DNA from: Salipiger pallidus
GTDB taxonomy: Bacteria; Pseudomonadota; Alphaproteobacteria; Rhodobacterales; Rhodobacteraceae
NCBI RefSeq assembly: GCF_014643635.1
Contig: NZ_BMJV01000011.1
Location: 1 to 64,000, forward strand
DNA: 64,000 nt
Reading direction: 5' to 3'
Shown: piece after piece, positions 9,030 through 28,105 of the stretch
Position numbering within the stretch: the first letter of the stretch is position 1
Layout: every line of letters begins with the position of its first letter
The notes under the pieces: generated by a model
Seen by the model: the letters and a program-made list of their open reading frames with translations, nothing else
What the model was told of the DNA's origin: nothing
Database searches by the model: none
Position numbers and translations under genes: made by a program

Positions 9030-9079
9030 GCGGCCCGTTCCAATCCTGTCCTGTTCCCCTTGCGGCCCAGCTTCTAGCC

Positions 9080-10354: not shown

Positions 10355-10386
10355 GGGATCTGTCCTAAGTGTTCAGGCTATGGTTT

Positions 10387-11331
10387 TCAGGCGGTTTCGC
10401 TGGCGCTCAGCAGGCTGGCCAGTTCCGCGAGGGTGGAGGTGCCCTCCATGGGGCCAAGCTGCGTAACGGCCCGAGCCCCAGCGGCGTTCGCATGGGCAAG
10501 GGCGCTGGCGGGATCGGCCCCATTCACCCAGAAGCTGACGAAAGCGCCGCCAAAGCAGTCTCCCGCGCCGGTCGGATCGATTTCTTCCACGGCAATCGGC
10601 GCGGCTTCGGTGCGTCCTGCAGCGTTGAAGTGGCTCGCGCCTTCGGCCCCGCGCTTGATAACGATCTCGCCCACGCCGCGCGCGAGCAACTCAGCGACCG
10701 CCTCAGCCTCGGTCCGGGCCTTGGTGAAGAGAAAGATCTCGTCGCCCGAGGGCAGGAACAGGTCGGTCTGCGCCAGCACCTCGTCCAGCGCCTCACGCAG
10801 GCCGGGGGTGCCCAGGATCTCGGGCCTCAGGTTGGGATCGAAGCTGAGCGTTCCGCCGTTTCCCTTCACAACCGCGATCGCCTCCATGGCGCGCTCCGCA
10901 AGGCCGGGAGCCGACAGCGCGGTGCCCATGACATGCATGTGCGTGCAGCTTTCCATCACCGCGCGGCCATTGGGCGTGGCGGGCAGGGTGCCGCAGGCGG
11001 CGTTGGCGATGTTGAAGACGAACACCCGCGAGCCGTCCTCACGGTAGCGCACGAAGGCCGAGCCGGTGGTCTCGCCATGGGCGATCTCGACCCCGCTCAC
11101 GTCCACCCCGTCGGCGCGGAGCCGGTCGAGGTTGAGCTGGCCAAAATCATCCCCCCCCACGCGCCCGAGGATGGCGCAGGGCGTACCGAGCTTGCCCACC
11201 TGATCGATGAAGATGGCAGGCGCTCCCGAGGGGAAGGGGCCAATCAGAGGCTGCGCCTCGAGAAAGCCGCTGCCCTTGGTGGTGGCGACGATCTCCACGA
11301 GGATCTCGCCGACGGTCAGGACCTTTGCCAT
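10387..11331 (-). CDS. PfkB-family sugar kinase, probable D-tagatose kinase
   Basis: A 314-residue ribokinase-like kinase. It has the N-terminal GEILVEI, the PfkB signature region GRVGGDDFGQLNLDRLRADG and the C-terminal catalytic motif EIDPTGAGDCFGGAF, whose Asp is the base. It should phosphorylate a free ketohexose entering through the adjacent ABC importer. Genes of this family (PF00294) beside a PF08013 protein act on D-tagatose to give tagatose-6-phosphate in Agrobacterium, and the same pairing is seen here. Three bases separate it from the permease stop, so it is cotranscribed. 2-keto-3-deoxygluconate or fructose kinase are the alternatives if context is ignored. Confidence 0.85.
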   Translation of the reverse strand: MAKVLTVGEILVEIVATTKGSGFLEAQPLIGPFPSGAPAIFIDQVGKLGTPCAILGRVGGDDFGQLNLDRLRADGVDVSGVEIAHGETTGSAFVRYREDGSRVFVFNIANAACGTLPATPNGRAVMESCTHMHVMGTALSAPGLAERAMEAIAVVKGNGGTLSFDPNLRPEILGTPGLREALDEVLAQTDLFLPSGDEIFLFTKARTEAEAVAELLARGVGEIVIKRGAEGASHFNAAGRTEAAPIAVEEIDPTGAGDCFGGAFVSFWVNGADPASALAHANAAGARAVTQLGPMEGTSTLAELASLLSASETA

Positions 11332-11334
11332 GGC

Positions 11335-12309
11335 TCAGCCCTGCCGCTGCTTGGAGCGCACGTCGAGCCAGACGGCGATGAGGATCACCAGCCCCTTGAC
11401 GATCAGCTGGTAGAAATAGGGCACCGACAGCATGTTCATGCCGTTGTTGAGCACCCCGATGATGAGCGCGCCGATCAGCGTGCCTACCATGGTGCCGACC
11501 CCACCCGCCAGCGATGTGCCGCCCAGCACGGCAGCGGCGATGGCGTCAAGCTCGTAGCTCATGCCAGCGTTGGTCTGCGCCGAATACAGCCGCGAGGACA
11601 GAAGGATGCCCGACACCGCCGCCATCACGCCCGAGATCATGAAGATCTTGATCTTCATCGCATCGACGTTGATCCCGGAATAGAGCGCCGCCTCGCGGTT
11701 GCCACCCGTGAGGTACGCCTTGCGCCCGAAGGTGGTGTGCGCCAGCGCGATATGGTTGACGAGGAACAGCACCACGACGATCCAGATGATGATGGGCAAG
11801 CCGAGGAAGCTGTTCGCGCCGATGGCGATCCAGGTGGGGTCCATGTTCATGGCCGGGGCGCCGCCGGTGGGCAGGCTGACGAGGCCGCGGTAGATGCTCA
11901 TGGTCGCCACGGTGACGATGAAGGATGGCAGCATCAGCTTGGCGGTCATGGTGCCATTGAACAGGCCCAGCACCGCCCCCGCCGCCAGTGTCAGCACCAA
12001 CGCTGGGACAAAGCCCCAGCCCAGCCCGATCACCTGCGCGCCGACCATGCCCGCCACAGCGATGATCGACCCGATGGAAAGGTCGATCTCGCCCAGCAGG
12101 ATCACCCATGTCATCCCGAAGGCGGCAATGGCGATCACGGCCACCTGCTGGAAGATGTTGGTGAAATTGGCCAGCGACAGGAAGCGGTCGTTGGTCACCG
12201 AGAAGATGATGCAGAGCGCCAGCAGCGCCAGCACGATGCCCGCGTACTGGCGGATCATAGCGCGCAGATAGCTATGGCCGGCGGTTTCGGTCGTTGTGGT
12301 ATCGGTCAT
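11335..12309 (-). CDS. Sugar ABC transporter permease (RbsC/AraH family)
   Basis: A 324-residue inner-membrane protein with about 8-10 hydrophobic segments, of the ribose/galactose permease type. Family marks include TWVILLGEIDLSIGSI and the C-terminal LDAIAAAVLGGTSLAGGVGT. It works as a homodimer with the two-domain ATPase encoded just upstream, whose gene it overlaps by four bases (ATGA), so the two are translationally coupled. Length normal. Confidence 0.93.
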   Translation of the reverse strand: MTDTTTTETAGHSYLRAMIRQYAGIVLALLALCIIFSVTNDRFLSLANFTNIFQQVAVIAIAAFGMTWVILLGEIDLSIGSIIAVAGMVGAQVIGLGWGFVPALVLTLAAGAVLGLFNGTMTAKLMLPSFIVTVATMSIYRGLVSLPTGGAPAMNMDPTWIAIGANSFLGLPIIIWIVVVLFLVNHIALAHTTFGRKAYLTGGNREAALYSGINVDAMKIKIFMISGVMAAVSGILLSSRLYSAQTNAGMSYELDAIAAAVLGGTSLAGGVGTMVGTLIGALIIGVLNNGMNMLSVPYFYQLIVKGLVILIAVWLDVRSKQRQG

Positions 12310-13814
12310 TGGACATGTCCCGTGGCAAAGGTCATCACCCTCTCGGGTGTTAGCGTGTCGCGGGGGGCGGTGGTCGCCACGCGGCCCTCGGACATGATCA
12401 TCACGCGGTCGGCAAGCCCCAGCACCTCGGGCAGTTCCGAAGAGACCATGAGGATCGCCGTGCCCTCCGAGGCAAGCTCGCGGATGATGCGGTAGATCTC
12501 GAATTTTGCGCCTACGTCGACGCCGCGGGTGGGCTCGTCAAGGATGAGGATGCGCGGTCTGGTGGCGAGCCACTTGGCTAGCACCACTTTCTGCTGGTTG
12601 CCGCCCGACAGAGTGCCGGTCACTGTCTCGATGGACCCGGTGCGGATGCCAAGGCGCTTGACCTCGCCTTCGGCGGCGGCGCGTTCGGGGCCGCTGCGCA
12701 TGAACCCGCGCCCGGAAAAGCGGTCAAGCGCGGCCATGGTCACGTTGGGCCGCAGCCCGTGCGACAAGACCAGCCCCTGTTCCTTGCGGTTCTCGGTGAC
12801 GAAGCCGATCCCTTGCGTGATCGCCTGCGCGGCGCTGGTGATGCGCACCTCCGCGCCGTCAATCTCGATCCGGCCCGTATCAGGCGGCAGCATCCCGAAA
12901 AGCGCGTTCATCACCTCGGACCGGCCCGAGCCGACAAGCCCGAACACCCCGAGGATCTCGCCCGCCTTCAGAACAAAGCTCACGTCCTCGAAGGCATCCT
13001 TGCGGGTCAGCCCGCTAACGCTGAGCACGGGCGTGTCACTGGGCGAGGCCACGACATCGAGCCGGGGCGGGTAGATCTCGTCCATGCGGCGCCCAACCAT
13101 CATCGCGATCAGCGCGTCGATGGTGGTGTCGTCCTTTTCCACCGTGGCGACATATTCGCCGTCGCGCACCACGGTGATGTCATCCGACAGGCGCATGATC
13201 TCTTCCATGCGGTGCGAGATGTAGATCACCGCCTTGCCCTGCGCGATGAGCTTGTCGATGATCCGGAACAGGATCTCGGCCTCACTGTCCGACAGCGACG
13301 AGGTCGGCTCGTCGAAGATCACCACCCGCGCGTCATGGCTGAGGCCCTTGGCGATCTCGACAAGCTGGCGCTGAGCGATCGACAGGTCCGCCACCCGGGC
13401 GTTCACGTCAAGTGGCAGGCCGAGCTCGGCCACCAGTGCGCGGGCCTGCGCCACCAGCTTGCGGTCCGAGATGAAGCCCATCCGCGTAGGTTCACGCGTG
13501 GCGAGGATGTTCTCGGCAACGGTTAGGTTGTTGCACAAGCTCAGTTCCTGAAAGACGATGGCCAGCCCGGCGGCGGCGGCCTCCTGCGGGGTGCGCGGAC
13601 GGAAATCCTTGCCGCCAAGGGTGATGTCACCCTCGGTGGGCAGCTGCACCCCCGCAAGGATCTTCATCAGCGTGGACTTGCCTGCACCATTCTCGCCAAG
13701 GATCGTGTGAACCCGGCCCGCGCGGACCGTCAGGTCCATGTGCCGCAGCGCGACGATGGGGCCGAAGGTCTTGCGGACCCCGGTCAGGTGCAGGACGACG
13801 TCACAATGCTCCAT
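12306..13814 (-). CDS. Sugar ABC transporter ATP-binding protein, two nucleotide-binding domains (RbsA/MglA family)
   Basis: A 502-residue ATPase with two tandem domains. The first has Walker A GENGAGKST, signature-like DLSIAQRQ and Walker B VVIFDEPTSSL. The second has signature LSGGNQQK and an intact Walker B ILILDEPTRGVDVG. The RBS CCAAAGGAGGCCGCC fits the ATG at 13814. It drives import of the sugar delivered by the binding protein encoded 90 bases upstream. Unlike the ATPase of the second sugar operon in this window, both Walker B motifs are complete. Confidence 0.94.
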   Translation of the reverse strand: MEHCDVVLHLTGVRKTFGPIVALRHMDLTVRAGRVHTILGENGAGKSTLMKILAGVQLPTEGDITLGGKDFRPRTPQEAAAAGLAIVFQELSLCNNLTVAENILATREPTRMGFISDRKLVAQARALVAELGLPLDVNARVADLSIAQRQLVEIAKGLSHDARVVIFDEPTSSLSDSEAEILFRIIDKLIAQGKAVIYISHRMEEIMRLSDDITVVRDGEYVATVEKDDTTIDALIAMMVGRRMDEIYPPRLDVVASPSDTPVLSVSGLTRKDAFEDVSFVLKAGEILGVFGLVGSGRSEVMNALFGMLPPDTGRIEIDGAEVRITSAAQAITQGIGFVTENRKEQGLVLSHGLRPNVTMAALDRFSGRGFMRSGPERAAAEGEVKRLGIRTGSIETVTGTLSGGNQQKVVLAKWLATRPRILILDEPTRGVDVGAKFEIYRIIRELASEGTAILMVSSELPEVLGLADRVMIMSEGRVATTAPRDTLTPERVMTFATGHVQ

Positions 13815-13848
13815 GGCGGCCTCCTTTGGGAACTTTGGCTAAGGGCTG

Positions 13849-13863
13849 GCCCGCCGCGCGGGC
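13849..13863 (-). other. Stem-loop between binding-protein and ATPase genes
   Basis: GCCCGC-CGC-GCGGGC is a perfect 6-base-pair hairpin in the 90-base gap after the binding-protein gene. There is no U-tract, so it is more likely an mRNA-stabilising or attenuating structure that favours expression of the binding protein than a true terminator. Confidence 0.5.
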
Positions 13864-13904
13864 GGGGTGGGACCGGCAGCTGATATACCGCCGGCCCCAA
13901 AGGC

Positions 13905-14792
13905 TTATTGCCCGGTGTAGACGCCCGGAACGATGGGCTGCTCGGCGGGAACCTCTTCGCCGTCCATGATGGCAAGCGCGGTGTCGACCGCCATCTTGCC
14001 CATCTGGTCGGGGAACTGCTGGATCACGCCGATCATCACGGGATCGCTGTCGACCGCGTTCCGCGCCTCTTCCATGCCGTCAAAGCCGATGACCTTGACC
14101 TGCTCGGCGAGCCCTGCGCTTTTCACCGCCACGGCGGCGGCGAGGGCGGCATCGTCACCGAAGCCGAAGATGCCGTCGATCTCGGGGTTGGCCTGCAGCA
14201 TGTTCTGCGCCGCCGCAAGCGCCTCGGCGCGGGTGATGCCGGTCTGCTGTGCGACGATCTCGATACCGGGGAACTCTTCGAGCCCCTTCTTGAAGCCGTC
14301 GATGCGGGCCACGACCGATTGCACGGTGGGATAGTCGATGATTGCCACCTGGCCTTCACCGCCCAGCTGTTCGCCCATCAACTTTGCCGCTTGCACGCCG
14401 CCGGCGTAGTTGTCGGTGCCGATGTAGGAGGTCACGTCCACGCCCGTCGCGGGCACGTCCACGGTGATGACCTCGATCCCGGCGGCCTTGGCCTTCATGA
14501 TCGCGGGCAGAGCGCCCTGGCTATCAACCGGCGAGATTACCAGCACGTCGACACCTTTGACGATGAAATCCTCGACGTCCGCCAGCTGCTTGGACAGGTC
14601 CTGGTTCGCGATGGACACCTCGAGCGGAACGTCTCTGGCCTCGGCCTCGGCCACCATGGCGTTGTTGATCTCGATGTAGAACGGGTGCTGCTGGGTCAGT
14701 AGCGACGCGCCGATACCCTCGGCCGATGCGCCGGTTGCCGCCAGAAGCGCTAGCGTCGTCGACGCAAGGAGATTGCGGGTGATGGTCTTCAT
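13905..14792 (-). CDS. Sugar ABC transporter periplasmic binding protein (RbsB-like), probable D-tagatose binder
   Basis: A 295-residue ribose-type binding protein. The signal peptide is residues 1-24 (ITRNLLASTTLALLAATGASA). The mature protein has the type I periplasmic fold: GASLLTQQHPFYIEINNAM, VDVLVISPVDSQGALPAI, TYIGTDNYAGG-like segments, and GIFGFGDDAALAAAVAVK. It is the first gene of the tagatose operon (binding protein, ATPase, permease, kinase, epimerase, LacI). Its promoter region carries two LacI-type palindromes. The ligand is inferred from the downstream kinase and epimerase genes; a hexose or hexitol is the safe reading. Confidence 0.9.
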   Translation of the reverse strand: MKTITRNLLASTTLALLAATGASAEGIGASLLTQQHPFYIEINNAMVAEAEARDVPLEVSIANQDLSKQLADVEDFIVKGVDVLVISPVDSQGALPAIMKAKAAGIEVITVDVPATGVDVTSYIGTDNYAGGVQAAKLMGEQLGGEGQVAIIDYPTVQSVVARIDGFKKGLEEFPGIEIVAQQTGITRAEALAAAQNMLQANPEIDGIFGFGDDAALAAAVAVKSAGLAEQVKVIGFDGMEEARNAVDSDPVMIGVIQQFPDQMGKMAVDTALAIMDGEEVPAEQPIVPGVYTGQ

Positions 14793-16988: not shown

Positions 16989-18038
16989 TCAGGTCGCGCG
17001 CACCTTGTCGAGCCGGGCAAAGAACAAGCCGGCCACGAGAATGAAGCCGCCAAGGATCGCCGTCTGCCAACTGCTCGGGATGCCTACGAGGATCAGCACG
17101 TTGCTGACCAGCGTGATGAGCAGCACGCCCAGCAGCGTGCCCTGCACCGTGCCCGACCCGCCGGTGATACGGGCGCCGCCGAGGACCACCGCTGCGATGA
17201 CCGGCAGCTCAGTGCCCGCGAGATCGAAGGGGTTGGCAAGGCGGTTGGCGGTGACGTGTATCACCCCCGCCAGTCCCGCCAGCAGACCGGCGAAGGCAAA
17301 GGCAAAGACCCTCACCCGGCCCACCCGGTAGCCCAGCCGCGCCGCGATGTCGGGCTTGCCGCCCACCGCGAAGATCGCGCGGCCGATCATGGTGAAGTTC
17401 AGCATCCACCACGTCAGCAGCGCCGCTACCACCAGCACGAGGAAGTAGACCGGCAGTTCCACTGCCAAGCCACGCTCGGTGGTGACCGAAATCAGCGTAA
17501 GCCGTCCAAAGCCGTCCATCGCGGCGGGAATGTTCATGAAAAGCGCGGTGCCGATGAAGGTCAGCAGGAAGCCGCGAAAGGCGTATTGTGTACCGATAGT
17601 GACAATCAGCGCCGGCGCTTTCAGGACGTTGACCAGCAGCCCGTTGATCGCCCCGAGCCCTGCCCCGGCCACGGCCGCCAGCGCAAGGATCGGCGCCATG
17701 CCAAGCTCTGGCGCCACGTTCACCACGAACAGCGTCAGCGTGTACATGACCAGTGCCCCGATGGCGGTGAACGACACGTCGAGCCCTCCCGAGGCCAGCA
17801 CCACCAGCACCCCGAGTGCGAACAGACCCCGCACCACAGAGGCGCGCAGAATGTCGAAGAGGTTGGCAAGCTGCCAGAAGTCGGTGTTGATCGCCCCCAC
17901 CACGAGGCAGGTCAGCACGATCAGCACCGCAGGGAAGATGGTCGGATGCTGCGCCGACCATGTCCAGAAGCGGCGGCTTGCGGACGGACCCTGCGCGGGA
18001 TCGGCGGCGTGGGAAGTCTCGGTGTTGGTTGTGGTCAT
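16989..18038 (-). CDS. Sugar ABC transporter permease 2 of the DHA-kinase locus
   Basis: A 349-residue inner-membrane permease of the ribose/AI-2 type, with about ten hydrophobic segments. A cytoplasmic N-terminal tail of about 30 residues precedes the first helix (IFPAVLIVLTCLVVGAI). The ASGGLDVSFTAIGAL segment and the C-terminal ELPVIAAVVLGGARITGGSG are family marks. It is the last gene of the minus-strand transporter operon, 12 bases after the ATPase. A second, distinct permease is encoded at the front of the same operon, so the transporter probably uses a heterodimeric channel as rhamnose and AI-2 importers do. Confidence 0.91.
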   Translation of the reverse strand: MTTTNTETSHAADPAQGPSASRRFWTWSAQHPTIFPAVLIVLTCLVVGAINTDFWQLANLFDILRASVVRGLFALGVLVVLASGGLDVSFTAIGALVMYTLTLFVVNVAPELGMAPILALAAVAGAGLGAINGLLVNVLKAPALIVTIGTQYAFRGFLLTFIGTALFMNIPAAMDGFGRLTLISVTTERGLAVELPVYFLVLVVAALLTWWMLNFTMIGRAIFAVGGKPDIAARLGYRVGRVRVFAFAFAGLLAGLAGVIHVTANRLANPFDLAGTELPVIAAVVLGGARITGGSGTVQGTLLGVLLITLVSNVLILVGIPSSWQTAILGGFILVAGLFFARLDKVRAT

Positions 18039-18050
18039 GTCCGGGGGTCC

Positions 18051-19583
18051 TTACGCCACGGCCAGCGCATGGGCGCCCGCGATGGCGGTGTAGAGCGTGT
18101 CTTCGTCCAGCGCCTCGGCGTCGTGGGTCTCGTGGATGCGGCCCTCGCGCATCACTGCGATGCGGTCGCAGTTCTGCAAAAGCTCAGGCAGGTCGTCCGA
18201 GACGATGATGATGCCCATGCCCGCTTCGGCTTGCGCCTGGATAATGCGGAAGATCGTGTCCTTGGAACCGACGTCGACACCCACGGTGGGACCGTGCAGG
18301 ATCAGCAGGCGCGGCTCGGTCGCGAGCCAGCGTCCAATGAGCACCCGCTGCTGGTTGCCCCCCGACAGGGACGAGACCGGTGCCTCGACGTCGCTTGCCA
18401 CGATGGCCAGATCATCCAGCGTTTGCTGCGCCCGGGCGCGGGCCCGGCCACGGTCCACCAGCCCCAACGCACCCTTGAGCCGCTCGAGGATCGACATGGT
18501 AATGTTCTCGGAAATCGGTTTTTCGAGGAACAGGCCCTCGGTCAGCCGGTCCTCGGGCACATAGGCCACCCCCGCCTCAATGGCGCGGTGCGGGGCCGAC
18601 ACGTCGAGCGGCGCGCCCGCAAGCGTCACCGTGCCCGCCTCGGGCGGGGCGAGGCCGGCGAGGCTCAGCGCAAACTCATTGCGGCCCGAGTCCGCAAGGC
18701 CGGTCAGTCCAAGGATCTCACCCGCGCCCACCTGCAGCGACAGGTCCGTGTAGTGGCCCGGCAGCGACAGGCCCTGCACATCGAGCAGCGGCATCACGTC
18801 ACCCTTGGCTGACGCGCGGTAGCGGCCCTGTTCCAGCTCGCGGCCCGTCATCCAGTAGCCGATCTCGGCATTGGTGGCGGTGCCAACGTCCACGGTCTGC
18901 ACCAGCTCGCCGTCGCGCATGACAAGGCCGGTGCCGCCCATCTCGCGCGCCTCGTCAAGCTTGTGAGTCACGAAGAGCACGGCGGCCCCGTTCTCCTGAA
19001 GGCGGCGCACCGTGCGGATGAGATTGTCGACCTCGCGCCGGGTGAGGGAGGTGGTCGGCTCATCCATGATCACCAGCCCTGCCTCGCTGGCCACAGCACG
19101 GGCGATGGCGACAAGTTGGCGCAGCGCGATGGGCAGCGTGTCGATGGGACGGCTCAGGAAGGCGCGGTCGGCGGGCAGGCCGACGATCTCCAGCGCGCGC
19201 TGCGCCGTCGTGGTCACCCGCTCCCGGTCAAGCCGGCGGAACAGCCCGCCGTGCCCCTCGACCAGCTGCTCGGAGAGGCCGATGTTCTCAGCCACCGTGA
19301 GGTTCGGCAACAATGACAGATCCTGGTAGACCGTTTCGATCCCCGCATCCAGCGCCTGGATCGGGTCGAGGCCGGTCATGTCGCGCCCCTCGATCAGCAC
19401 TTGCCCAGAGGTGGCGGGCTGGGCGCCGGAGATGATCTTGATGAGCGTGGATTTGCCGCAGCCGTTCTCGCCAAGGAGGTGGTAGAACTGCCCGCGCTCG
19501 ATGTGGAGGCTGACACCCTTCAGCGCGTGCACGCCGCCGTAGCGCTTGTGCAGGTCGCGGGTTTCGAGAAAGGCAGCGGTCAT
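18051..19583 (-). CDS. Sugar ABC transporter ATPase with degenerate second site
   Basis: A 510-residue, two-domain sugar importer ATPase. Domain 1 has Walker A GENGCGKST and Walker B LVIMDEPTTSL, but its signature motif reads LPIALRQL instead of the usual LSxGQ or LSIAQRQ. Domain 2 has an intact signature LSGGNQQRVLIGRWL, but its Walker B reads LLILHGPTVGVDVG: the usual Asp-Glu pair is His430-Gly431, so the catalytic glutamate and magnesium-binding aspartate are missing. One working composite site formed by Walker B 1 and signature 2 would remain. It is encoded between the binding protein and permease 2 and should energise both permeases. Confidence 0.92.
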   Translation of the reverse strand: MTAAFLETRDLHKRYGGVHALKGVSLHIERGQFYHLLGENGCGKSTLIKIISGAQPATSGQVLIEGRDMTGLDPIQALDAGIETVYQDLSLLPNLTVAENIGLSEQLVEGHGGLFRRLDRERVTTTAQRALEIVGLPADRAFLSRPIDTLPIALRQLVAIARAVASEAGLVIMDEPTTSLTRREVDNLIRTVRRLQENGAAVLFVTHKLDEAREMGGTGLVMRDGELVQTVDVGTATNAEIGYWMTGRELEQGRYRASAKGDVMPLLDVQGLSLPGHYTDLSLQVGAGEILGLTGLADSGRNEFALSLAGLAPPEAGTVTLAGAPLDVSAPHRAIEAGVAYVPEDRLTEGLFLEKPISENITMSILERLKGALGLVDRGRARARAQQTLDDLAIVASDVEAPVSSLSGGNQQRVLIGRWLATEPRLLILHGPTVGVDVGSKDTIFRIIQAQAEAGMGIIIVSDDLPELLQNCDRIAVMREGRIHETHDAEALDEDTLYTAIAGAHALAVA

Positions 19584-19658: not shown

Positions 19659-20660
19659 TCAGAACGGGAAGTCGGACCAGTTGTCCTTGGTCACGTCGAC
19701 CCAGGCCTGGCCACGGACGATCTTGCCATCGCCGGGGCCATCGCTGACGGTCACGTTGGTATAGCCCGGCACGCCGAGATCGTCGCCGGTGGCGATCTCT
19801 TCACCGTTCAGCACCTTGTGGGCCAGGATGTTCATGACGTAGCCGGCATCCTTGGGATCCCAGAAGGCGATGCCGTCGACGGCACCGCTCTCGAGATAGG
19901 CCGAGCTGTCCTTGGGAAGGCCGAGGCCATAGACACAGGTCTCATCCTCGAGCCCTGCTTCCTCGACCGCGCGGCCGATGCCGATCACATCGATGGCCGA
20001 ACCACCTTGGAAGCCCTTGATGTCGGGATGGCTGCGCAGGATCTCCTTGGCCAGCTCGTAGGCGCGGTTGGCGTCGTTGAAGCTCTCGTTCTTGGGCGAG
20101 ACCAGCTCCATGTCCGGGAACTGCGACATGTATTCCTCACCACCATCAGCCCATTGCACGTGGGTCAGCGAGCCGAGAGAGCCCACGAACGAAGTCCACT
20201 TGCCACTCTCGCCCATGCATTCTGCGATGTCCTCGGCGAAGTGTGCGCCGAACTCGGCATTGTCGAAGGCCTCGAGGTCAAGTTGCGTGTTCTGCATGTT
20301 GTCGGCTTCGTGGGTGATCACGGTGATCCCCCGCCCCTGCGCCCGGCGCAGCACGCCTTCCAGCGTTGAGGGGTCCATCGGCACGATGGCCAGCGCGTCG
20401 ACACCCTGCGCGATGAGATCCTGCACGATGGCGGCCTGCTGTGCCGCGTCCGCACGGCCCGGGCCCACCTGACGGGCGGCAATGCCGTCGGTCTCTTCGT
20501 TGTAGGCGTTGACGCCCTCTTCCATGCGGGTGAACCAGTTCTCGCCCGTGACCTTGACCACAGTGACGATTTCCTTGTCCTGTGCCTGCGCGGCGCCCGC
20601 GAGGCCCAGCACCGCCACGGACGTGGCAAGTGCGCTCAGCATCGGTTTCCTGAATGTCAT
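19659..20660 (-). CDS. Sugar ABC transporter binding protein (RhaS/LsrB-like)
   Basis: A 333-residue periplasmic binding protein. ATG 20660 is preceded by CCGGAGGAGGAAACATC and opens a signal peptide (KPMLSALATSVAVLGLAGAAQA, cleavage before QDKE). The mature protein resembles the rhamnose/autoinducer-2 binding branch: VTGENWFTRMEEGVNAYNEE, DALAIVPMDPSTLEGVLRRA, ITHEADNMQNTQLD and DGIAFWDPKDAGYVMN. The ligand is unknown. The divergent kinase genes suggest a compound giving dihydroxyacetone or a tetrulose, but the DHA kinases have no adjacent dehydrogenase or isomerase to narrow this down. Confidence 0.9.
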   Translation of the reverse strand: MTFRKPMLSALATSVAVLGLAGAAQAQDKEIVTVVKVTGENWFTRMEEGVNAYNEETDGIAARQVGPGRADAAQQAAIVQDLIAQGVDALAIVPMDPSTLEGVLRRAQGRGITVITHEADNMQNTQLDLEAFDNAEFGAHFAEDIAECMGESGKWTSFVGSLGSLTHVQWADGGEEYMSQFPDMELVSPKNESFNDANRAYELAKEILRSHPDIKGFQGGSAIDVIGIGRAVEEAGLEDETCVYGLGLPKDSSAYLESGAVDGIAFWDPKDAGYVMNILAHKVLNGEEIATGDDLGVPGYTNVTVSDGPGDGKIVRGQAWVDVTKDNWSDFPF

Positions 20661-20741: not shown

Positions 20742-21752
20742 TCAGCCGGTCGTCGCCGGGTGTCGGCGCAGCACGGCGCTGGTGTAGTGCCCCCAGTCCA
20801 GCCGCGCGTTGGCCAGGAACAGCAAAAGCAGCAGACCCCAGGCGCAATCACGGAAGAAGTTGGAGATCTGCATGAAGTTGAACAGGCTCGACAGGATCTG
20901 CAGCGCGATCGCCGAGAGCACGACGCAGACCACCCGGCCATACCCGCCCTCGGGGCGCACCCCAGCCATCACGGCGATGAGGATGGCCACCAGCACGTAG
21001 GAGCTGCCGTAATCCCATTTGATTGACGAGGTCCGCGCCGCGATGATGATGCCCGCGACCGACGCGAGCACCCCCGCCAGCAGGTAGGTGCGGAACAACA
21101 TCGCGCCGACCCGGATGCCAGCAAAGCGCGCCGCCTTGGGATTGGACCCCATCAGGAACAGGTGGATGCCGAAGCGCGAGAACCGCAGCATCGCCGCCAG
21201 TGCAAGCGCGATGATCACGAAGATCGCGAAGGTGCGCGGCACGCCCATCCAGGGCATGTTGCCGAAGTCGTCGATCACCGGCACATAGCCCAGCTGCAGC
21301 GCCGAACCGCCGGTGAGCCCCACCGCGATGCCGGTGAACAGCAACTGGGTTCCCAGCGTCGCGATGATTGGCGTCATACCGGCAAAGCCGATAAGCGCGC
21401 CATTTAGCGCCCCGCCCAGCACGCCAGTCAGCAGCGCGATGACCGAGAACATGGCGAAGAAGGCCACCGGGGCGTCGGACGCATCGAAAAGGCCCGGCGC
21501 CAGCAAGAAGGCCACCACCCCCGACAGGTTCGCCAGTGCGATGCCCGACAGGTCGATGCCGCCATTGCCCGACACCATTGCCAGCATGACGCCGAGCGCC
21601 AGCAGGCCGAGCTCTGGCACCTGCGTGCCCATCGACTGGAAGTTGTAGAGTGACATGAAGCGATCGCCGACCAGAGCCATGGCGGCCACGACGATTGCCG
21701 CGTTGATGCCCACAAGGAACACCAGCTGCGCATCCATGCGTCCGGCTTTCAT
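20742..21752 (-). CDS. Sugar ABC transporter permease 1 of the DHA-kinase locus
   Basis: A 336-residue inner-membrane permease. ATG 21752 is chosen because AGGAGGATCGTC lies just before it; the longer in-frame start adds a basic, non-membrane tail. About ten hydrophobic segments are seen (LVFLVGINAAIVVAAMALV first). Family marks are VSGNGGIDLSGIALANLSG and the late RTSSIKWDYGSSYVLVAILIAVMAG. It is the first gene of the leftward operon (permease 1, binding protein, ATPase, permease 2), an unusual order because the binding protein is normally first. Confidence 0.9.
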   Translation of the reverse strand: MKAGRMDAQLVFLVGINAAIVVAAMALVGDRFMSLYNFQSMGTQVPELGLLALGVMLAMVSGNGGIDLSGIALANLSGVVAFLLAPGLFDASDAPVAFFAMFSVIALLTGVLGGALNGALIGFAGMTPIIATLGTQLLFTGIAVGLTGGSALQLGYVPVIDDFGNMPWMGVPRTFAIFVIIALALAAMLRFSRFGIHLFLMGSNPKAARFAGIRVGAMLFRTYLLAGVLASVAGIIIAARTSSIKWDYGSSYVLVAILIAVMAGVRPEGGYGRVVCVVLSAIALQILSSLFNFMQISNFFRDCAWGLLLLLFLANARLDWGHYTSAVLRRHPATTG

Positions 21753-22006
21753 GACGATCCTCCTCCTGCGGCCGGTCACGGACCGCTTTCGTCGCGGCCC
21801 CAATCGCAGGTCCGCGTCTCCTCGCCCACAAGGAAGCGCGCATTTCCACTTTTGTCAACGCCAATGTTTGTTTTGTAAAAATAGCCACGCGATTTCGGTT
21901 GACAGCCCAGCCATCTGTCGGAAATGAAAGAGGAAGGGCGGCGGTCCCGCGCATGGAATTCCGCCGGGACCGTGCTGGCTAAACGGCGCGACAAGGAGGA
22001 GATTTC
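21753..22006. promoter_or_regulatory. Divergent promoter region of the DHA-kinase locus
   Basis: A 254-base gap between the leftward transporter operon and the rightward dhaK gene. An AT-rich core at 21845-21900 holds two TTGACA-type -35 boxes facing opposite ways: minus strand near 21853-21858 (tgtcaa on the plus strand) and plus strand near 21899. This fits two divergent promoters controlled together, probably by the SorC-DhaK fusion encoded at 24462-26552. No clear long palindrome is visible. Confidence 0.45.
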
Positions 22007-23011
22007 ATGCAACGACTGTTCAACGATCCCGATGATATCGTGGACGAAACCGTCTCTGGATTCGTCCGGGCACATGCCGACCATGTGACGCTGTCGCCGG
22101 ACAATCCGCGCGTCGTGCTGGCGAAGGGCTGTGGCGAAACGGGCCGGGTCGGCATCGTGACGGGCGGCGGATCGGGCCATGAGCCTGCCTTCATGGGCTA
22201 TGCGGGAGAGCGCATGGTCGACGCGGTTGCCGTGGGCGAACTGTTCTCGTCCCCCACCGCCAAGGCGTTCCTCGAAGCCATCCGTGCAGCCGATGGCGGC
22301 GCAGGCGTGGCGGTGCTCTACGGCAACTATGCCGGCGACAACATGAACGTGAAGATGGCCGCACGCATGGCTGCCAAGGAGGGCATCGAGGTGCTCACCG
22401 TAGTCGCCAACGACGATGTCTGCTCGGCACCCATTGATGAGCGCGCCAAGCGGCGCGGCGTCGCGGGTGAGATCCTGATGTGGAAGGTGGGCGGGGCCAA
22501 GGCGGCTACGGGCGCTTCGCTGACGGAGGTGCAAGCCACCGCCCAGAAGGCGATCGACGCCACCCGCTCGGTCGGGGTCGGCCTGGCGCCCTGCACCCTT
22601 CCCGCCAACGGCAAGCCCAATTTCGACATCCCCGGCGGCAAGATGGAGGTCGGCATCGGCCACCACGGCGAGCCTGGAACCGAAGTGGCCGATCTCGAAT
22701 CCGCCGACGCGGTGGCGGACCGGATGCTGAAGATCGTGCTCGACGACCACGACCTCGCGTCGGGCGACCGGGTCTGCGTGCTGCTCTCGGGGCTTGGCGC
22801 AACACCGATCAATGAGCTTTACGTGGTCTACGATCGGGTGGCCAAGGGGCTGGAGGAAAAAGGTATTTCCGTGCACCGCCCCTTCGTGGGCAATTATTTC
22901 ACCTCGCTCGAGATGATGGGCGTGACGCTGACCGTGATGAAGCTGGACGACGAACTGGAGGCGCTGATCGACGCACCCGCCAGCGCCCCCGGCATGGCCG
23001 TGAAAGGCTGA
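22007..23011 (+). CDS. dhaK: Dihydroxyacetone/tetrulose kinase, DhaK subunit
   Basis: A 334-residue DhaK. It carries the residues that bind the ketose substrate: His58 in GGGSGHEPAF, Asp111 in GNYAGDNMN and His220 in VGIGHHGEPG, the last expected to form the covalent hemiaminal with the substrate carbonyl (E. coli counterparts His56, Asp109, His218). Length is normal. RBS AAGGAGGAG precedes the ATG. It is followed after 12 bases by a DhaL gene. No DhaM phosphotransferase gene is nearby, so the enzyme should use ATP. Relatives act on dihydroxyacetone or on D- or L-erythrulose; the substrate cannot be settled from sequence. Confidence 0.92.
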   Translation: MQRLFNDPDDIVDETVSGFVRAHADHVTLSPDNPRVVLAKGCGETGRVGIVTGGGSGHEPAFMGYAGERMVDAVAVGELFSSPTAKAFLEAIRAADGGAGVAVLYGNYAGDNMNVKMAARMAAKEGIEVLTVVANDDVCSAPIDERAKRRGVAGEILMWKVGGAKAATGASLTEVQATAQKAIDATRSVGVGLAPCTLPANGKPNFDIPGGKMEVGIGHHGEPGTEVADLESADAVADRMLKIVLDDHDLASGDRVCVLLSGLGATPINELYVVYDRVAKGLEEKGISVHRPFVGNYFTSLEMMGVTLTVMKLDDELEALIDAPASAPGMAVKG

Positions 23012-23023
23012 GGAGGACCGAAG

Positions 23024-23656
23024 ATGGCAAGTTTCGAGAACGCAGGTTCGGGCGCTATGGTGCGCAAGGTGGCGGCGGCAGTGGTCGAGAACCGCGCTTG
23101 GCTGTCCGAGATCGACGGCAAGATCGGCGACGGTGACCACGGTAACAACATGGCCAAGGGCTTTGGCCGCGCCGCCGAGCGGATCTCCGACGGGGACACG
23201 CTGGATGCGGCCTTCGCCACCGTCACCGACGTGCTGATGGGCGAGATCGGCGGCTCGATGGGGCCGCTCTACGGCATGTTCTTCTCGGACATGGCAGACG
23301 TGGTCGCCGGCAAGGAGCGTATCGACGCCCCCACCTTCGCCGCGATGCTGGCCGCCGGTGCCGAGGGCGTCATGGCCATCGGCGAGGCGCGCCCGGGCGA
23401 CAAGTGCCTTCTCGATGCGCTCTGCCCCGCCGTGACCGCCGCCGAGGAGAATGCCGCAAAGGGCTTCCCCGAAACACTCGTCGCGGTGCGCAAGGCGGCC
23501 GAAGACGGCCGTGATGCCACCGTTGACATGATCGCGCAGATCGGCCGCGCCAGCCGGCTGGGCGAACGGTCGCGCGGGGTGCAGGATGCAGGCGCCACCT
23601 CCTGCGCGCTGATCCTCGTGACCCTTGCCGACGCCATCGAGGCTCGGCTTTCCTGA
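23024..23656 (+). CDS. dhaL: Dihydroxyacetone kinase, DhaL (nucleotide-binding) subunit 1
   Basis: A 210-residue DhaL subunit, an all-alpha barrel that holds ADP/ATP through two magnesium ions. The three metal-binding aspartates are present in SEIDGKIGDGDHG (Asp31, Asp36, Asp38). Further marks are GGSMGPLYG, RPGDKCLLDAL and the C-terminal AGATSCALIL. It is coupled to the dhaK gene (12-base gap, RBS GAGGAGGACC) and is the expected partner of that subunit. Confidence 0.92.
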   Translation: MASFENAGSGAMVRKVAAAVVENRAWLSEIDGKIGDGDHGNNMAKGFGRAAERISDGDTLDAAFATVTDVLMGEIGGSMGPLYGMFFSDMADVVAGKERIDAPTFAAMLAAGAEGVMAIGEARPGDKCLLDALCPAVTAAEENAAKGFPETLVAVRKAAEDGRDATVDMIAQIGRASRLGERSRGVQDAGATSCALILVTLADAIEARLS

Positions 23657-23853: not shown

Positions 23854-24465
23854 ATGACCCAAGACCTCGACCGGGCGGCGATGGCCGCTTTCCTGAAACG
23901 CGCCGCCCAGCGGCTGGAAGAGTGCCGCACCGAGCTAAGCACCCTCGACGGCGAGGTCGGCGACGGCGATCATGGGGCCTCCATGGCCGACGGCTTCTCC
24001 GCCGCCGCCACCGGTTTCGAGACCGAGGGCGACGACCTGCCCGGCGCCTTGCGCGCCGCCGGGCAGCGGTTCCTGAGCGCGGTCGGGGCGACGGTTGGCC
24101 CGCTCTATGCCACCGCCTTTATCGAGGCCGCCGGGCGCAGTGGCCCGGACAGCATCCCGGCCCCCACGCTCATCGCGGCCTTTGACGACGGCATCGCCCG
24201 TCGCGGCAATGCCCAGCCCGGCGATTGCACCATGCGTGATGTCTGGCTCCCCGCAGCGCGCTGCGCCGCCTCGGGCAGCATGCCCGAGGTGCTCGAGGCC
24301 GCCGGGGCCGGGCTCGAGGCGACACGGACAATGGTCGCAGCCAAAGGCCGCGCAGCGCGGCTCGGCAGCCGCACGCTGGGCCGCATCGACCCCGGAGCGC
24401 GCTCGGCGCTAGTGATCCTTGAGGCCCTGTCAAACACCTTGGGCGGCGAAGGCGACAGCGCATGA
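23854..24465 (+). CDS. Dihydroxyacetone kinase, DhaL subunit 2
   Basis: A 203-residue second DhaL subunit. ATG 23854 is chosen because GGAGAAGAGCGG precedes it. It has the metal-binding triad in STLDGEVGDGDHGASM (Asp32, Asp37, Asp39), VGATVGPLYATAF, PGDCTMRDVW and DPGARSALVILEAL. It is clearly diverged from subunit 1. Its stop codon overlaps the start of the SorC-DhaK fusion by four bases (ATGA), so the two proteins are made together; the fusion's DhaK domain is its natural partner. Confidence 0.9.
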   Translation: MTQDLDRAAMAAFLKRAAQRLEECRTELSTLDGEVGDGDHGASMADGFSAAATGFETEGDDLPGALRAAGQRFLSAVGATVGPLYATAFIEAAGRSGPDSIPAPTLIAAFDDGIARRGNAQPGDCTMRDVWLPAARCAASGSMPEVLEAAGAGLEATRTMVAAKGRAARLGSRTLGRIDPGARSALVILEALSNTLGGEGDSA

Positions 24466-26552
24466 GCGAGAGCCGCGCGAAACGGTCCGGCGCTCCTGAC
24501 GCCAGCAAGCGCGCGCCGCTGAAGTTCGGCGACGATCCCCTGCTCTGGGCCGCCTGGCTCTATTACGAAGAGGGCATGACCCAGAGTGAGATTGCCGCCA
24601 CCATGGGCCTGTCGCGCCCCACGGTGATCACCTATCTGTCCGAAGCGCGCGAGCGCGGCATCGTCAATATCTCCATCGCGGTGGACAGGCTGCGCAGCCT
24701 GTCGCTGGCACAGCAGATGGTCGACCATTTCGGCCTGCGCGATTGCCTCGTGGTGCCCACCGAGGGCGGCGAGCGCAGCCTGATCGACCGGCTCGGCGAT
24801 GCCGGGGCCCGCACGCTGGGCTGGCACCTGCGCCCGGCCCAGACCGTGGGGATCGCCTGGGGCCGGACCATGCTGGCCGTTGCCGCCGCCGTGCCGCCGC
24901 AGCATCTTGCCGACCTGCGCGTGGTGCAGGCCACCGGCGGCACCACCGCCGCCATCCCCTACACCCCTGAGGCCGTCGCCACCCGCCTGTCCGAGGCGCT
25001 CTCGGCGCAGGTCGTTCCGATCTCCGCGCCCTGCATCGTCTCGCAGCCGCAGGTGCGTGACCTGCTGCTGCAGGAACCTGTTCTGCGCGAGCAGATGCAG
25101 TCCCTGTCCGAACTCGACATGATCGTGCTGGGCGTGTCCTCGCTGCGGCCCAACTCCACCATCCACACCAGCGGCTTCTTCGCCAACGCGCTCGAACAGC
25201 ACGACCATTACCGCGATGCGGTGGGCTCGCTGGTGGGGCGGTTCATCGACGCGCAGGGCACGCCAGTGATCGGCCCGCTTGACGGGCGCACCATCGGCCT
25301 GCCGCTCGAGGCCCTGCGCCAAGTGCGCACCCGCATTGGCGTCTCCGGAGGGTTCGACAAGGTGCCCGCCCTGCTGGCGGCGTTGCGCGGCGGCTACATC
25401 AACGTCCTGGTCACCGACGCCGACACCGCCGAGGGCATCCTGCGCGCCGACGGCGCCGAGGTGCAGCGCCAGAGCCTGTCGCGCCGGCCGCCGTCCTCGC
25501 CTACGCCCGAGCCTGCGCCGGCGGTCGGAACCCCCGCCCCACCCCCTTTTGTCAAGAAGTTGCTCAACGACCCGCGCGCCGCGGTCGACGAGGCGATGGA
25601 GGGGCTGCTGCGGGCCCACCCGGGCCACATTGCCCGCATCGACGGCTCGTTCCGGGCCATCCGCCGCGCCACGCCCGCCCCCGAGGGCAAGGTCGGGCTG
25701 GTGATCGGCGGCGGTGCCGGACACGAGCCACTTTTCCTGGGCTACGTTGGACCGGGCCTCGCCGACGCGGTGGCGGTGGGCAACATCTTTGCCGCACCTC
25801 CGCCCGACCGAATCCTCGCCTGCTGCCGCGCGGCATCGTCCGGCGCGGGCGTTCTGCATGTCTTCGGCAACTACTCGGGTGACGTGATGAACTTCGAAAT
25901 GGCCGGAGAGCTGGCCTCCGCGATGGGCATCGAGGTGCGCACCGTGGTGACCACTGACGACATCGCCTACTCGCCCGCGTCCGACCGGGACGGTCGGCGC
26001 GGCACCGCGGGCAACGTTTTCATCTTCAAGATCGCCGGGGCCGCCTGCGACCGGATGCTGCCGCTCGAAGATTGCGAGCGGATCACGCAAAAGGCCAACG
26101 CGGCCACTTTCACAATGAGCGTCGGCCTCACGGCAGGATCCCTGCCCGAGACACGCCGCCCCTCGTTCGAGCTTGGCGCGGACGAAATCGAGATCGGCGT
26201 CGGCATCCACGGCGAGCCGGGCGTGCAGCGCGCTCTGATGATGAGCGCGGACGACATCGCCGACCGCATCATGGACGGACTGTTTTCCGAGGCCGGGCTT
26301 TGTCCCGGCAGCCGCATCGGGCTATTGGTCAACGCTCTTGGCGGCACGCCGATGATGGAGCTGGGTATCCTGAACCGACGGGTGCACCAGCGTCTTGCCG
26401 CACGCGGGGTCGAGATCGTGCGGACCTGGCTCGGCCCATACTGCACGTCGCTCGACATGGATGGGGCTTCGGTCTCCGTGATCGTCCTGGACGAGCAGCT
26501 CGAAGACCTGCTGCTGGCCCCCTGCGACGGCTTCGCCTTCCGCGTTGGCTGA
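24462..26552 (+). CDS. SorC-family sugar-sensing regulator fused to a DhaK kinase domain
   Basis: A 696-residue fusion. Residues about 28-66 are a SorC/DeoR-type helix-turn-helix (EEGMTQSEIAATMGLSRPTV). Residues about 70-335 are the SorC sugar-phosphate-binding effector domain (QTVGIAWGRTM, RVVQATGGTTAAIPYTPE, ELDMIVLGVSSL, GVSGGFDKVPALLAALRGGY). A Pro/Ala-rich linker spans about 341-362. Residues 363-696 are a full DhaK domain with His421 (GGGAGHEP), Asp474 (GNYSGDVMN) and His583 (VGIHGEPG), so the substrate-binding chemistry looks intact. Translation is coupled to dhaL2. In E. coli the separate DhaK and DhaL proteins control the activator DhaR; here sensing seems hard-wired into one chain. 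I recall this architecture only as an automatic annotation name and know of no characterisation. Confidence 0.9.
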   Translation: MSESRAKRSGAPDASKRAPLKFGDDPLLWAAWLYYEEGMTQSEIAATMGLSRPTVITYLSEARERGIVNISIAVDRLRSLSLAQQMVDHFGLRDCLVVPTEGGERSLIDRLGDAGARTLGWHLRPAQTVGIAWGRTMLAVAAAVPPQHLADLRVVQATGGTTAAIPYTPEAVATRLSEALSAQVVPISAPCIVSQPQVRDLLLQEPVLREQMQSLSELDMIVLGVSSLRPNSTIHTSGFFANALEQHDHYRDAVGSLVGRFIDAQGTPVIGPLDGRTIGLPLEALRQVRTRIGVSGGFDKVPALLAALRGGYINVLVTDADTAEGILRADGAEVQRQSLSRRPPSSPTPEPAPAVGTPAPPPFVKKLLNDPRAAVDEAMEGLLRAHPGHIARIDGSFRAIRRATPAPEGKVGLVIGGGAGHEPLFLGYVGPGLADAVAVGNIFAAPPPDRILACCRAASSGAGVLHVFGNYSGDVMNFEMAGELASAMGIEVRTVVTTDDIAYSPASDRDGRRGTAGNVFIFKIAGAACDRMLPLEDCERITQKANAATFTMSVGLTAGSLPETRRPSFELGADEIEIGVGIHGEPGVQRALMMSADDIADRIMDGLFSEAGLCPGSRIGLLVNALGGTPMMELGILNRRVHQRLAARGVEIVRTWLGPYCTSLDMDGASVSVIVLDEQLEDLLLAPCDGFAFRVG

Positions 26553-26567: not shown

Positions 26568-27260
26568 ATGGGGGCACCCTCTTTCAGGCCTGCAATAGCG
26601 CTATCGCCGGAACCACGGCCAACGAGGGCATCACTGGTCCTGACCGCAGCCCCTCTGGCCTCGGCCGCAAGCCTTGGCACGGCTCTGCAGGCGCAGGCGC
26701 AGGACGTGGGCTCCGGGTCACTGGTGCTCGGCACCTTGGGCGCTCCGTTTTACCAGGCGCTGCGATGCAGCGCCATGCCCCGCGCCGAAGAACTCGTTCT
26801 CTGCCGGTGACCAGTTCGCCGCCGACAGCCAGATCACGGTGGATGCGGTGACCGCCACCGCCCCCGACGTGGCCGCCGTCGTGCCCACGGACATGCAGGT
26901 GCTGGTCCAGCCAATGCGTGAGCTGGCCGAACGGGCCACCCGTTTCATCACCGTGAACCAAATCGTCGTCGGCAGCAATTTCGACGAGACCGAGGTGCTT
27001 ACAGACAACAAGGGAGGCGGCAGCACGGTGGCCAATGTCATGGCCGAATTCTTCGGCCGTGGAGACGAGATGCTCGTGGTCATTCAGCCGCCAAGCTCTC
27101 TGGCCCGGCCCCCCACCGCCGGGTTCGAGACCTACGACGGCATCGACTACCTCGGTGGGCAGGACCAGTCCGATGACCCTAAGAAGGCCGCCGAGATCGT
27201 CCCCTCGACTGTCTCCGCCCGCCCACATCCTGTAATGGCTGCCTCTCCGCAGGATTTGCT
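26568..27260 (+). pseudogene. Frameshifted sugar ABC transporter binding protein
   Basis: Two frames together encode a ribose-type binding protein. First frame, about 26568-26770: signal-peptide-like ALTAAPLASAAS-type sequence, then LGTLGAPFYQAL. Second frame, about 26810-27230: QFAADSQITVDAVTATAPDV, AVVPTDMQVLVQPMRELAE, TEVLTDNKGGGSTVANVMAE and GAQYQ-like GGQDQSDDPKKAAEIV. The frame change is near 26770-26810, and the last third of the protein is missing or unreadable. It is probably the relic of a transporter gene once belonging to the DHA-kinase locus. No partner ATPase or permease follows. Confidence 0.75.
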
Positions 27261-27355
27261 TCGGACGGTGCGGCGTTCAGGCCTGCTGCCCGTCATCCAC
27301 AAGTGCACGCAGAGCGCACGCAGGAACCGGACAAGCCATCCGTCACCCGGTTCAG

Positions 27356-28105
27356 TCACCTGCGGCGGGCGCTGATCGCATATCGGTGTTCCGACCGGCG
27401 CAACACGGATTTCAGCCAGCCGAACTGAACCGCCTGCGCCCGGTGAATCGCACCGAGATCAGTGTCGACCTGCACATCCTCGAACCCAGCCGCACGCAGG
27501 AGTGCCACGACCTCCCTCCCCCGGGCCCCATGCGCGAAATGAACCCGCGACAGGATCTCGGCATGCCGGGAGAAGCCGGGTCGAGGCCGCGCCGTCGCCA
27601 CTTTACCGACCAGCCGCGACAGCCAGCTTCGCGAGACGAAATCGCCGTCCACAACCAGCAATTGGCCGCCGGGGGCGAGGATTCGGTGCCACTCTGCAAA
27701 GGCCGCTGCCGGGTCGACCAGTGTCCAGACAAGGTGGCGCGTCACGATCACGTCCGTTGACGCATCCGGCAGCATGGTGCGCTCGGCATCGGCCTGCAGG
27801 AACGTCACTCCGGGTAGCTTGGCGCGCGCCCGATCCAGCATGGGTTCCGCCCAGTCGAGGCCGGTGACCGCGAAACCCATGTCCCGGCACAGGCGCGCGA
27901 TCTCCCCGGTGCCGGAGGCAAGGTCAAGCAGCCGTCGCCCCTCGGCCAGGCCAAGGTGACGGGTGAAGAGCGCCCGCCAGGCGGACATCTCTGCACCGTC
28001 CGCGATACGATGGCCCGGGTCGTTGTCAAAGGTCGCCGCACGGTCCGACCAGTACTCGCGGATGTCGTCGCGCAGGTCGCGGTTGGAAGGGGGGACTTGC
28101 GTCAT
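27356..28105 (-). CDS. Class I SAM-dependent methyltransferase (UbiE-like)
   Basis: A 249-residue cytoplasmic methyltransferase. ATG 28105 is chosen (weak RBS GAGAGCCAGG) because the longer frame adds 77 residues unlike any methyltransferase. The SAM-binding motif I is RLLDLASGTGEIA, motif II GLDWAEPMLDRARA and motif IV region VIVTRHLVWTLVDP, with ILAPGGQLLVVDGD following. A YWSDRAATFD start is common in this group. The acceptor is unknown. It is divergent from an iron/cobalamin-type ABC transporter over 124 bases, a pairing also seen for metallophore-related methyltransferases, which suggests but does not prove a role with the imported chelate. Confidence 0.82.
   Translation of the reverse strand: MTQVPPSNRDLRDDIREYWSDRAATFDNDPGHRIADGAEMSAWRALFTRHLGLAEGRRLLDLASGTGEIARLCRDMGFAVTGLDWAEPMLDRARAKLPGVTFLQADAERTMLPDASTDVIVTRHLVWTLVDPAAAFAEWHRILAPGGQLLVVDGDFVSRSWLSRLVGKVATARPRPGFSRHAEILSRVHFAHGARGREVVALLRAAGFEDVQVDTDLGAIHRAQAVQFGWLKSVLRRSEHRYAISARRR

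Follow-up and report, generated by a model that had tools for sequence, protein, structure and literature searches.

A predicted SorC-DhaK fusion protein of rhizobia and roseobacters as a candidate ketose-responsive regulator

We describe a protein encoded in Salipiger pallidus that, by its sequence, is an LsrR/DeoR-type SorC regulator joined through a variable linker to a complete DhaK domain. In the reading that we favor, to which we give a probability of roughly 0.55, it would be a SorC-type repressor to which one half of an active ketose kinase, the substrate-binding one, is attached, the phosphoketose inducer being made on the regulator itself. The fusion, its domains, its catalytic residues, its DhaL partner, and a candidate operator are all conserved at the level of sequence.

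RESULTS

The fusion (696 amino acids; positions 24462 to 26552, forward strand) starts with ATG and forms one uninterrupted open reading frame (ORF) in the 64,000-nucleotide stretch of DNA that we analyzed (the window). Its regulator part (residues 20 to 330; 24519 to 25451, forward strand), defined by PF04198, phmmer matches, and an AlphaFold2 model, consists of a helix-turn-helix (HTH) at about residues 26 to 64 and an effector-binding domain at about residues 78 to 330. The Pfam Sugar-bind model PF04198 scored 199 bits at residues 78 to 328 (cut-off, 27), several HTH models of Pfam matched residues 27 to 79, the majority of them under their cut-offs, and the top phmmer matches of the regulator part were SorC (2w48), LsrR (4go1), and DeoR (8r7y). 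With this N-terminal HTH and PF04198 effector-binding domain, the fusion belongs to the SorC/DeoR family. The linker (about residues 331 to 362; 25452 to 25547, forward strand) was placed from the linker lengths across fusions and from pLDDT values below 50 at residues 335 to 360. It is followed by the DhaK (Dak1) domain (25548 to 26549, forward strand), which was identified from profile scores, from His421, Asp474, and His583, and from Foldseek; Pfam Dak1 (PF02733) matched residues 380 to 689 with 361.6 bits (cut-off, 31.4). The open frame and the PF04198 and PF02733 matches thus agree with an earlier note on this DNA, made from its letters alone, which had proposed a single 696-residue chain of a SorC-type regulator and a complete DhaK.

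An AlphaFold2 model, computed from an alignment of 23 of the 44 fusions, had a mean pLDDT of 79.0 and a pTM of 0.51, with low confidence at residues 1 to 23 and in the linker (335 to 360); at this pTM, the placement of the SorC and DhaK domains relative to each other is a tentative prediction. In Foldseek searches, the DhaK part best matched E. coli DhaK (3pnk/3pnl), and the regulator part matched SorC, DeoR, and LsrR.

The fusion recurs in relatives. That of Ponticoccus alexandrii is full length and 88.2% identical to the window fusion, and its locus has the order seen in the window (transporter, dhaK, dhaL, dhaL, fusion). A full-length fusion was found at 43 of 45 surveyed loci, a proportion that is not a fusion frequency, as all loci except L010 and L051 had been picked for matching most of the query. 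At L051 a contig end cuts the locus, and at L010 SorC and DhaK are separate genes. The survey took in 39 of 80 GTDB loci (38 with full-length fusions, plus L051; in the other 41 the match is confined to the DhaK part or extends little beyond it) and further loci, among them four plasmid records and L002, whose genus is that of the window. The possibility that two genes were joined by an error of sequencing, against which the earlier note had cautioned, or of assembly is ruled out by the 43 further full-length loci, P. alexandrii included, and we give it a vanishingly small probability. The database search for the same domain order and gene context that the note had called for thus returned both in relatives, each time with DhaL adjacent (43/43). 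At the locus of L010 and L111 (genome G051), SorC, DhaK, and DhaL are separate neighbors, and the SorC part is 30% identical.

The fusion is nonetheless uncommon in genome samples. It was present in 2 of 61 relatives and in 7 of 394 genomes of the family, and in the class (385 genomes) and phylum (299 genomes) samples the window's own genome was the sole match; at most two or three candidates were scored per genome in the family, class, and phylum samples, so that these counts do not prove absence. Of 1,075 plasmid records with a match, 110 align over 80% or more of the query. The hosts belong to the Hyphomicrobiales and Rhodobacterales according to the plasmid record (four) or the family given in the tree (several loci); the remaining hosts are presumably members of the same two orders, judging by genus. 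In Sinorhizobium meliloti 1021, the fusion lies on pSymB.

The architecture carries a name in databases. NCBI calls three proteins (WP_023851988.1, WP_223730486.1, and WP_289809480.1) "bifunctional sugar-binding transcriptional regulator/dihydroxyacetone kinase subunit DhaK," which bears out the earlier note, where the architecture figured as an automatic product name; these proteins have the same architecture as the window fusion and are known by product name alone. The statement of the note that no experimental study was known agrees with our search of the open full-text literature, to which most subscription papers do not belong: it returned no study of a SorC-DhaK fusion and contained neither the product-name phrase nor the S. 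meliloti locus tags that we guessed. The consulted portion of PMC4921024 does not describe the fusion (its "SorC" match is an author name), and neither do those of PMC12780249 and PMC10733421.

One reading of the fusion is that SorC and DhaK work independently and were joined for coexpression only, with no cross-talk. Consistent with this are the linker, which ranges from 22 to 32 amino acids across the 44 fusions and varies in sequence too, the lack of confidence in the modeled domain packing, and the separate neighboring genes at L010/L111. However, the fusion has been retained across several families, with either of two transporter types and with its neighboring genes in either of two orders, and the sole split locus seen, among loci picked by full-length match, has a SorC part so distant from that of the window. 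We regard independence of the two parts as possible, though on balance unlikely.

In the DhaK domain of the window fusion, His421, Asp474, and His583 align to His56, Asp109, and His218 of E. coli DhaK and are invariant in the 44 fusions, all of which thus combine a Dak1 fold with the covalent-binding His and the catalytic His and Asp. The earlier statement that the substrate-binding residues are kept holds for these catalytic and tethering residues and fails for others: in the window fusion, Ala419, Ala444, Ala445, and Gly469 stand where E. coli DhaK has Ser54, Thr79, Ser80, and Lys104. We take Ser80 and Lys104 of E. coli DhaK to be contacts of dihydroxyacetone (DHA). Glycine stands at the Lys104 place in 44/44 fusions and in the neighboring DhaK1; among free DhaK rows, this place is Lys in E. 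coli and most rows from Bacillota and Gly in others. Alanine at the Ser80 place is confined to 8 of the 44 fusions, and those of the window and P. alexandrii have Ala at the Ser54, Thr79, and Ser80 places alike. The aligned residues indicate that the catalytic machinery is kept in a pocket unlike that of E. coli DhaK.

Profile scores point the same domain toward DhaK. In NCBIfam, the DhaK part was nearest to DhaK-type models yet below every curated cut-off listed: TIGR02363 (DhaK) gave 351.8 bits (cut-off, 406.25), and the DhaK1 protein, at 351.4 bits, likewise fell under that value. The DhaQ model TIGR02362 gave 193.9 bits against a cut-off of 413.25, so the domain does not score as DhaQ. A pseudokinase or DhaQ-like reading of the domain is disfavored by residues and profile scores. 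Because the other pocket residues differ and both window DhaK proteins score under the curated value, the substrate may not be DHA; we consider DHA doubtful as the substrate of the fused kinase.

Sequence conservation was compared in 37 gene sets (the window and 36 loci with all parts present). Mean pairwise identity was 81.5% for the HTH, 71.0% for the effector domain, and 75.3% for the DhaK part, values at which neither the DhaK part nor the effector domain is decaying. The separate kinase pair was the better conserved (DhaK1, 82.9%, versus 75.3% for the DhaK part; DhaL1, 75.7%, versus 60.2% for DhaL2), so that the fused kinase pair is constrained, though less than the separate pair.

A DhaK tree of 69 rows included 25 of the 44 fusions, chosen by hand, and omitted L003, L004, L008, L010, L011, and L012. 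The 25 fusion rows and 21 DhaK1 rows each formed one group relative to the other in 100% of 200 bootstrap trees, a split scored without the 23 ungrouped rows. Two free DhaK genes (L028 and L038), each with its own DhaL, nested within the fusion clade, as expected if fusion-type DhaK works as an enzyme, and among its nearest outside neighbors was a DhaK-DhaL protein (L112) encoded in the same genome as the window. The fusions of the window and P. alexandrii share a long branch (0.69 changes per site); given this branch and the alanines at the Ser54, Thr79, and Ser80 places, their DhaK activity may be shifted or weakened.

A working kinase would also need the nucleotide-binding subunit, and the gene for a DhaL adjoins the fusion. 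DhaL2 (23854 to 24465, forward strand) scored 120.1 bits with Dak2 (PF02734) and 137.9 bits with TIGR02365, barely short of the cut-off of 138.3. Asp30, Asp35, and Asp37 (E. coli numbering) are present in all 47 DhaL2 rows, as befits a DhaL partner. At all 43 loci a DhaL lies on the strand of the fusion, overlapping it or at most 133 bases away, although the overlaps arise in part from taking ORFs from the first possible start; a DhaL2 was called where an ORF was closer to the window DhaL2 than to DhaL1. In the window, the dhaL2 stop codon TGA (24463 to 24465) lies inside the ATGA (24462 to 24465) of the fusion start, as the earlier note had it. This four-base overlap is not general, however, since DhaL is only downstream of the fusion at 33 of the 43 loci, only upstream at 8, and on both sides at 2.

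A second, complete kinase pair precedes dhaL2: DhaK1 (22007 to 23011, forward strand; PF02733, 374.2 bits), which belongs to its own tree group, and DhaL1 (23024 to 23656, forward strand), which at 164.1 bits passes the TIGR02365 cut-off of 138.3. Separate ORFs for DhaK1 and DhaL1 are also present at 36 of 43 loci. Activity of the fused kinase would gain support from a locus at which it is the sole kinase of this kind. The fusion and DhaL2 are the only such genes seen at the L046 locus, and the genome of L045, which seemed to have no other such kinase, has DhaK1 and DhaL1 elsewhere. At two fusion-bearing loci, DhaK1 and DhaL1 are apparently joined (L113 of G017, 8681 to 10465, 594 amino acids; L099, 9577 to 11313, 578 amino acids).

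We counted the complete DhaK1/DhaL1 pair as evidence against our preferred explanation, because with it at hand, sensing could be the main role of the fused copy. The DhaK domain would then report substrate or DhaL and gate DNA binding by SorC, with catalysis secondary. DhaQ of Lactococcus lactis, a protein of its own with no DhaL partner and separate from its TetR-type partner DhaS, binds DHA covalently, so that a tethering His alone is no proof of catalysis. Further points in favor are the better conservation of the upstream pair and the titles of two PDB entries, one of which (4lrx) has DhaR bound by E. coli DhaK, while the other (2iu4) presents L. lactis DhaQ as a coactivator that binds DHA. 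The invariance of the Asp and of both His residues, the DhaL next to the fusion at every locus seen, and a profile score far nearer to DhaK than to DhaQ argue against it. We judge a mainly sensory role rather unlikely; our estimates for it and for the kinase reading are not exclusive, as a working kinase may also signal.

The genes divergent from dhaK1 encode a sugar ABC transporter (all on the reverse strand): a permease (20742 to 21752; putative start codon; 90% identity with a P. alexandrii protein annotated as an ABC permease), a substrate-binding protein (19659 to 20660; putative start codon) that is RhaS- and LsrB-like and under both cut-offs, an ATPase (18051 to 19583), and another permease (16989 to 18038). 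This type of transporter, with two permeases, an ATPase, and a binding protein, is one of two main ones. The other, with one permease and a short-chain dehydrogenase/reductase (SDR), is present at 29 of 43 loci and in 5 of 6 further family members (L121 differs); the SDRs at the 29 loci lie beside the kinases and are at least 67% identical to that of L098. The L098 SDR, the one that we scanned, scored 412.8 bits for GolD/DthD dehydrogenases (cut-off, 286), and on this score the second locus type plausibly imports a polyol and oxidizes it to a ketose. A tetrulose or a DHA-like compound would fit as the kinase substrate. In Mycolicibacterium smegmatis, tetritols are used through pathways with DthD, EltD, and LerK. 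The second locus type resembles these in having the SDR together with the kinases, whereas no SDR like that of L098 was found among the window ORFs. EltD and LerK of the M. smegmatis tetritol pathways are treated in the consulted portion of PMC10733421.

Just 3' of the fusion, an ORF (26674 to 27372, forward strand) matched a periplasmic-binding-protein model with 24.3 bits (Pfam cut-off, 35.1) and may be what decay has left of a sugar-binding protein. Another sugar ABC transporter lies at 10387 to 14792 (reverse strand), next to an ORF that weakly matches (26%) a sugar kinase of L099.

The divergent intergenic region of the window contains a candidate operator (21850 to 21879, forward strand) composed of TTTTGTCAA and TTTTGTAAA set 21 bp apart (TTTTGTCAA-N12-TTTTGTAAA), and similar sites lie upstream of relatives. 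It falls inside the region that the earlier note had proposed as the DNA target (21753 to 22006). With up to two mismatches, the site occurred once in its own 4.44-Mb genome, and a reversed control not at all. Counts of words shared upstream of the transporters pointed to GACATTTGTC and neighboring words. TTGACATTTGTCGAA, with at most three mismatches, was found in 31 of 39 upstream regions and missing at that threshold from 8, against 0.16 expected from single-letter shuffles, an excess that overstates the evidence because the regions come from related loci and are not independent. By the same rule, 27 of 29 second-type upstream regions and three of five second-type family members matched. 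Among the 38 regions that were 300 bases or longer, a first copy could be anchored in 31 (29 at two mismatches or fewer, the window and P. alexandrii by hand), and a second TTTGTC (at most one mismatch) followed exactly 21 bp on in 24 of these 31, the next-best spacing accounting for 2. A looser motif search of 15 wider regions, run without a shuffle control, was positive in 13 and negative in L121 and L028. The 15-base consensus operator had no match in the window, where the site was recognized through its half-sites instead, and two Shinella loci (L026 and L029) have a second half, TTTTGTAAAA, identical to that of the window. A scan of 21735 to 22010 for sigma-70 promoters and terminators found nothing.

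The conserved tandem candidate site, with half-sites 21 bp apart at related loci, may be an operator of the SorC/DeoR kind. It is new here, and the fusion may bind there. The SorC-family regulators DeoR and CggR bind as tetramers to two half-operators, according to the consulted portion of PMC11229326, and the two half-sites would suit their dimer-of-dimers mode. The same portion of that source gives a DeoR half-operator, ATTGAACAAAATTTCAAT, that resembles TTGACATTTGTCGAA.

DISCUSSION

Within our preferred reading, the fusion would be a SorC/DeoR-subfamily regulator, most likely a repressor, that binds as a dimer of dimers to the tandem site between the divergent transporter genes and dhaK1-dhaL1-dhaL2-fusion, so as to control its own gene along with the import of a short-chain ketose and its phosphorylation. 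Its C-terminal DhaK domain, together with the adjacent DhaL2, would form a working ATP-dependent ketose kinase, and the phosphoketose made on the fusion would probably be bound by the SorC effector domain of the same chain and would free the fusion from DNA, as phospho-AI-2 does LsrR, the kinase here being attached. We infer operator binding, repression, kinase activity, the phosphoketose inducer, and any influence of DhaK on the contact with DNA.

LsrR would be the nearest working model, by analogy: an importer acts there with a kinase whose phosphorylated product releases a regulator of the SorC family. LsrK is the kinase that makes the inducer of LsrR. The window regulator is LsrR-type (phmmer, 126.9 bits), and the importer is a ribose-type ABC system whose binding protein is weakly LsrB-like (96 bits; cut-off, 384); the window kinase subunit differs in being DhaK-type and in forming one chain with the regulator. 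The Bacillus subtilis proteins DeoR and CggR share with the fusion the domain order, the fold, and a two-half operator (a candidate one here) but lack a kinase domain. CggR is released from DNA by fructose 1,6-bisphosphate (FBP) and dihydroxyacetone phosphate (DHAP), its effector domain binds DHAP with a KD of 3.3 µM, and phosphosugar binding is the function ascribed to the effector domain of SorC proteins (consulted portion of PMC11229326). A simpler reading is thus that the regulator senses the product of the fused kinase.

Two known systems suggest contact as an alternative route, and the earlier note had proposed that the regulator could directly sense substrate occupancy, catalysis, or ADP/ATP-bound DhaL. 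E. coli DhaR is an activator of a family other than SorC. As at the window locus, DHA kinase subunits are tied to transcription in E. coli, and the DhaK fold is shared (3pnl, 4lrx), but DhaR is encoded by a separate gene, whereas the window has a fused SorC regulator and Gly in place of Lys104. In L. lactis DhaQ/DhaS, a DhaK-like protein (2iu4) likewise takes part in regulation; the fusion, unlike DhaQ, has a DhaL beside it at 43/43 loci and scores as DhaK. Since the DhaK-like proteins of both systems can signal by contact, a contact mechanism remains conceivable. The two routes could also be combined in a built-in kinase, with DhaK-DhaL2 making the inducer and the catalytic state (ketose on His583, DhaL2 bound) being relayed to the SorC domains; we hold this combination to be unlikely. 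If it is true, the switch would read flux rather than concentration.

The link between DHA kinase and transcription is known from systems in which the two are separate proteins, and the fusion joins both covalently. Rhizobia and roseobacters have retained it along with a candidate operator that is likewise conserved. It offers a compact test of whether an enzyme domain drives its own regulator, and it provides a candidate regulon for uncharacterized short-chain ketose or polyol use in these bacteria, including Sinorhizobium meliloti 1021.
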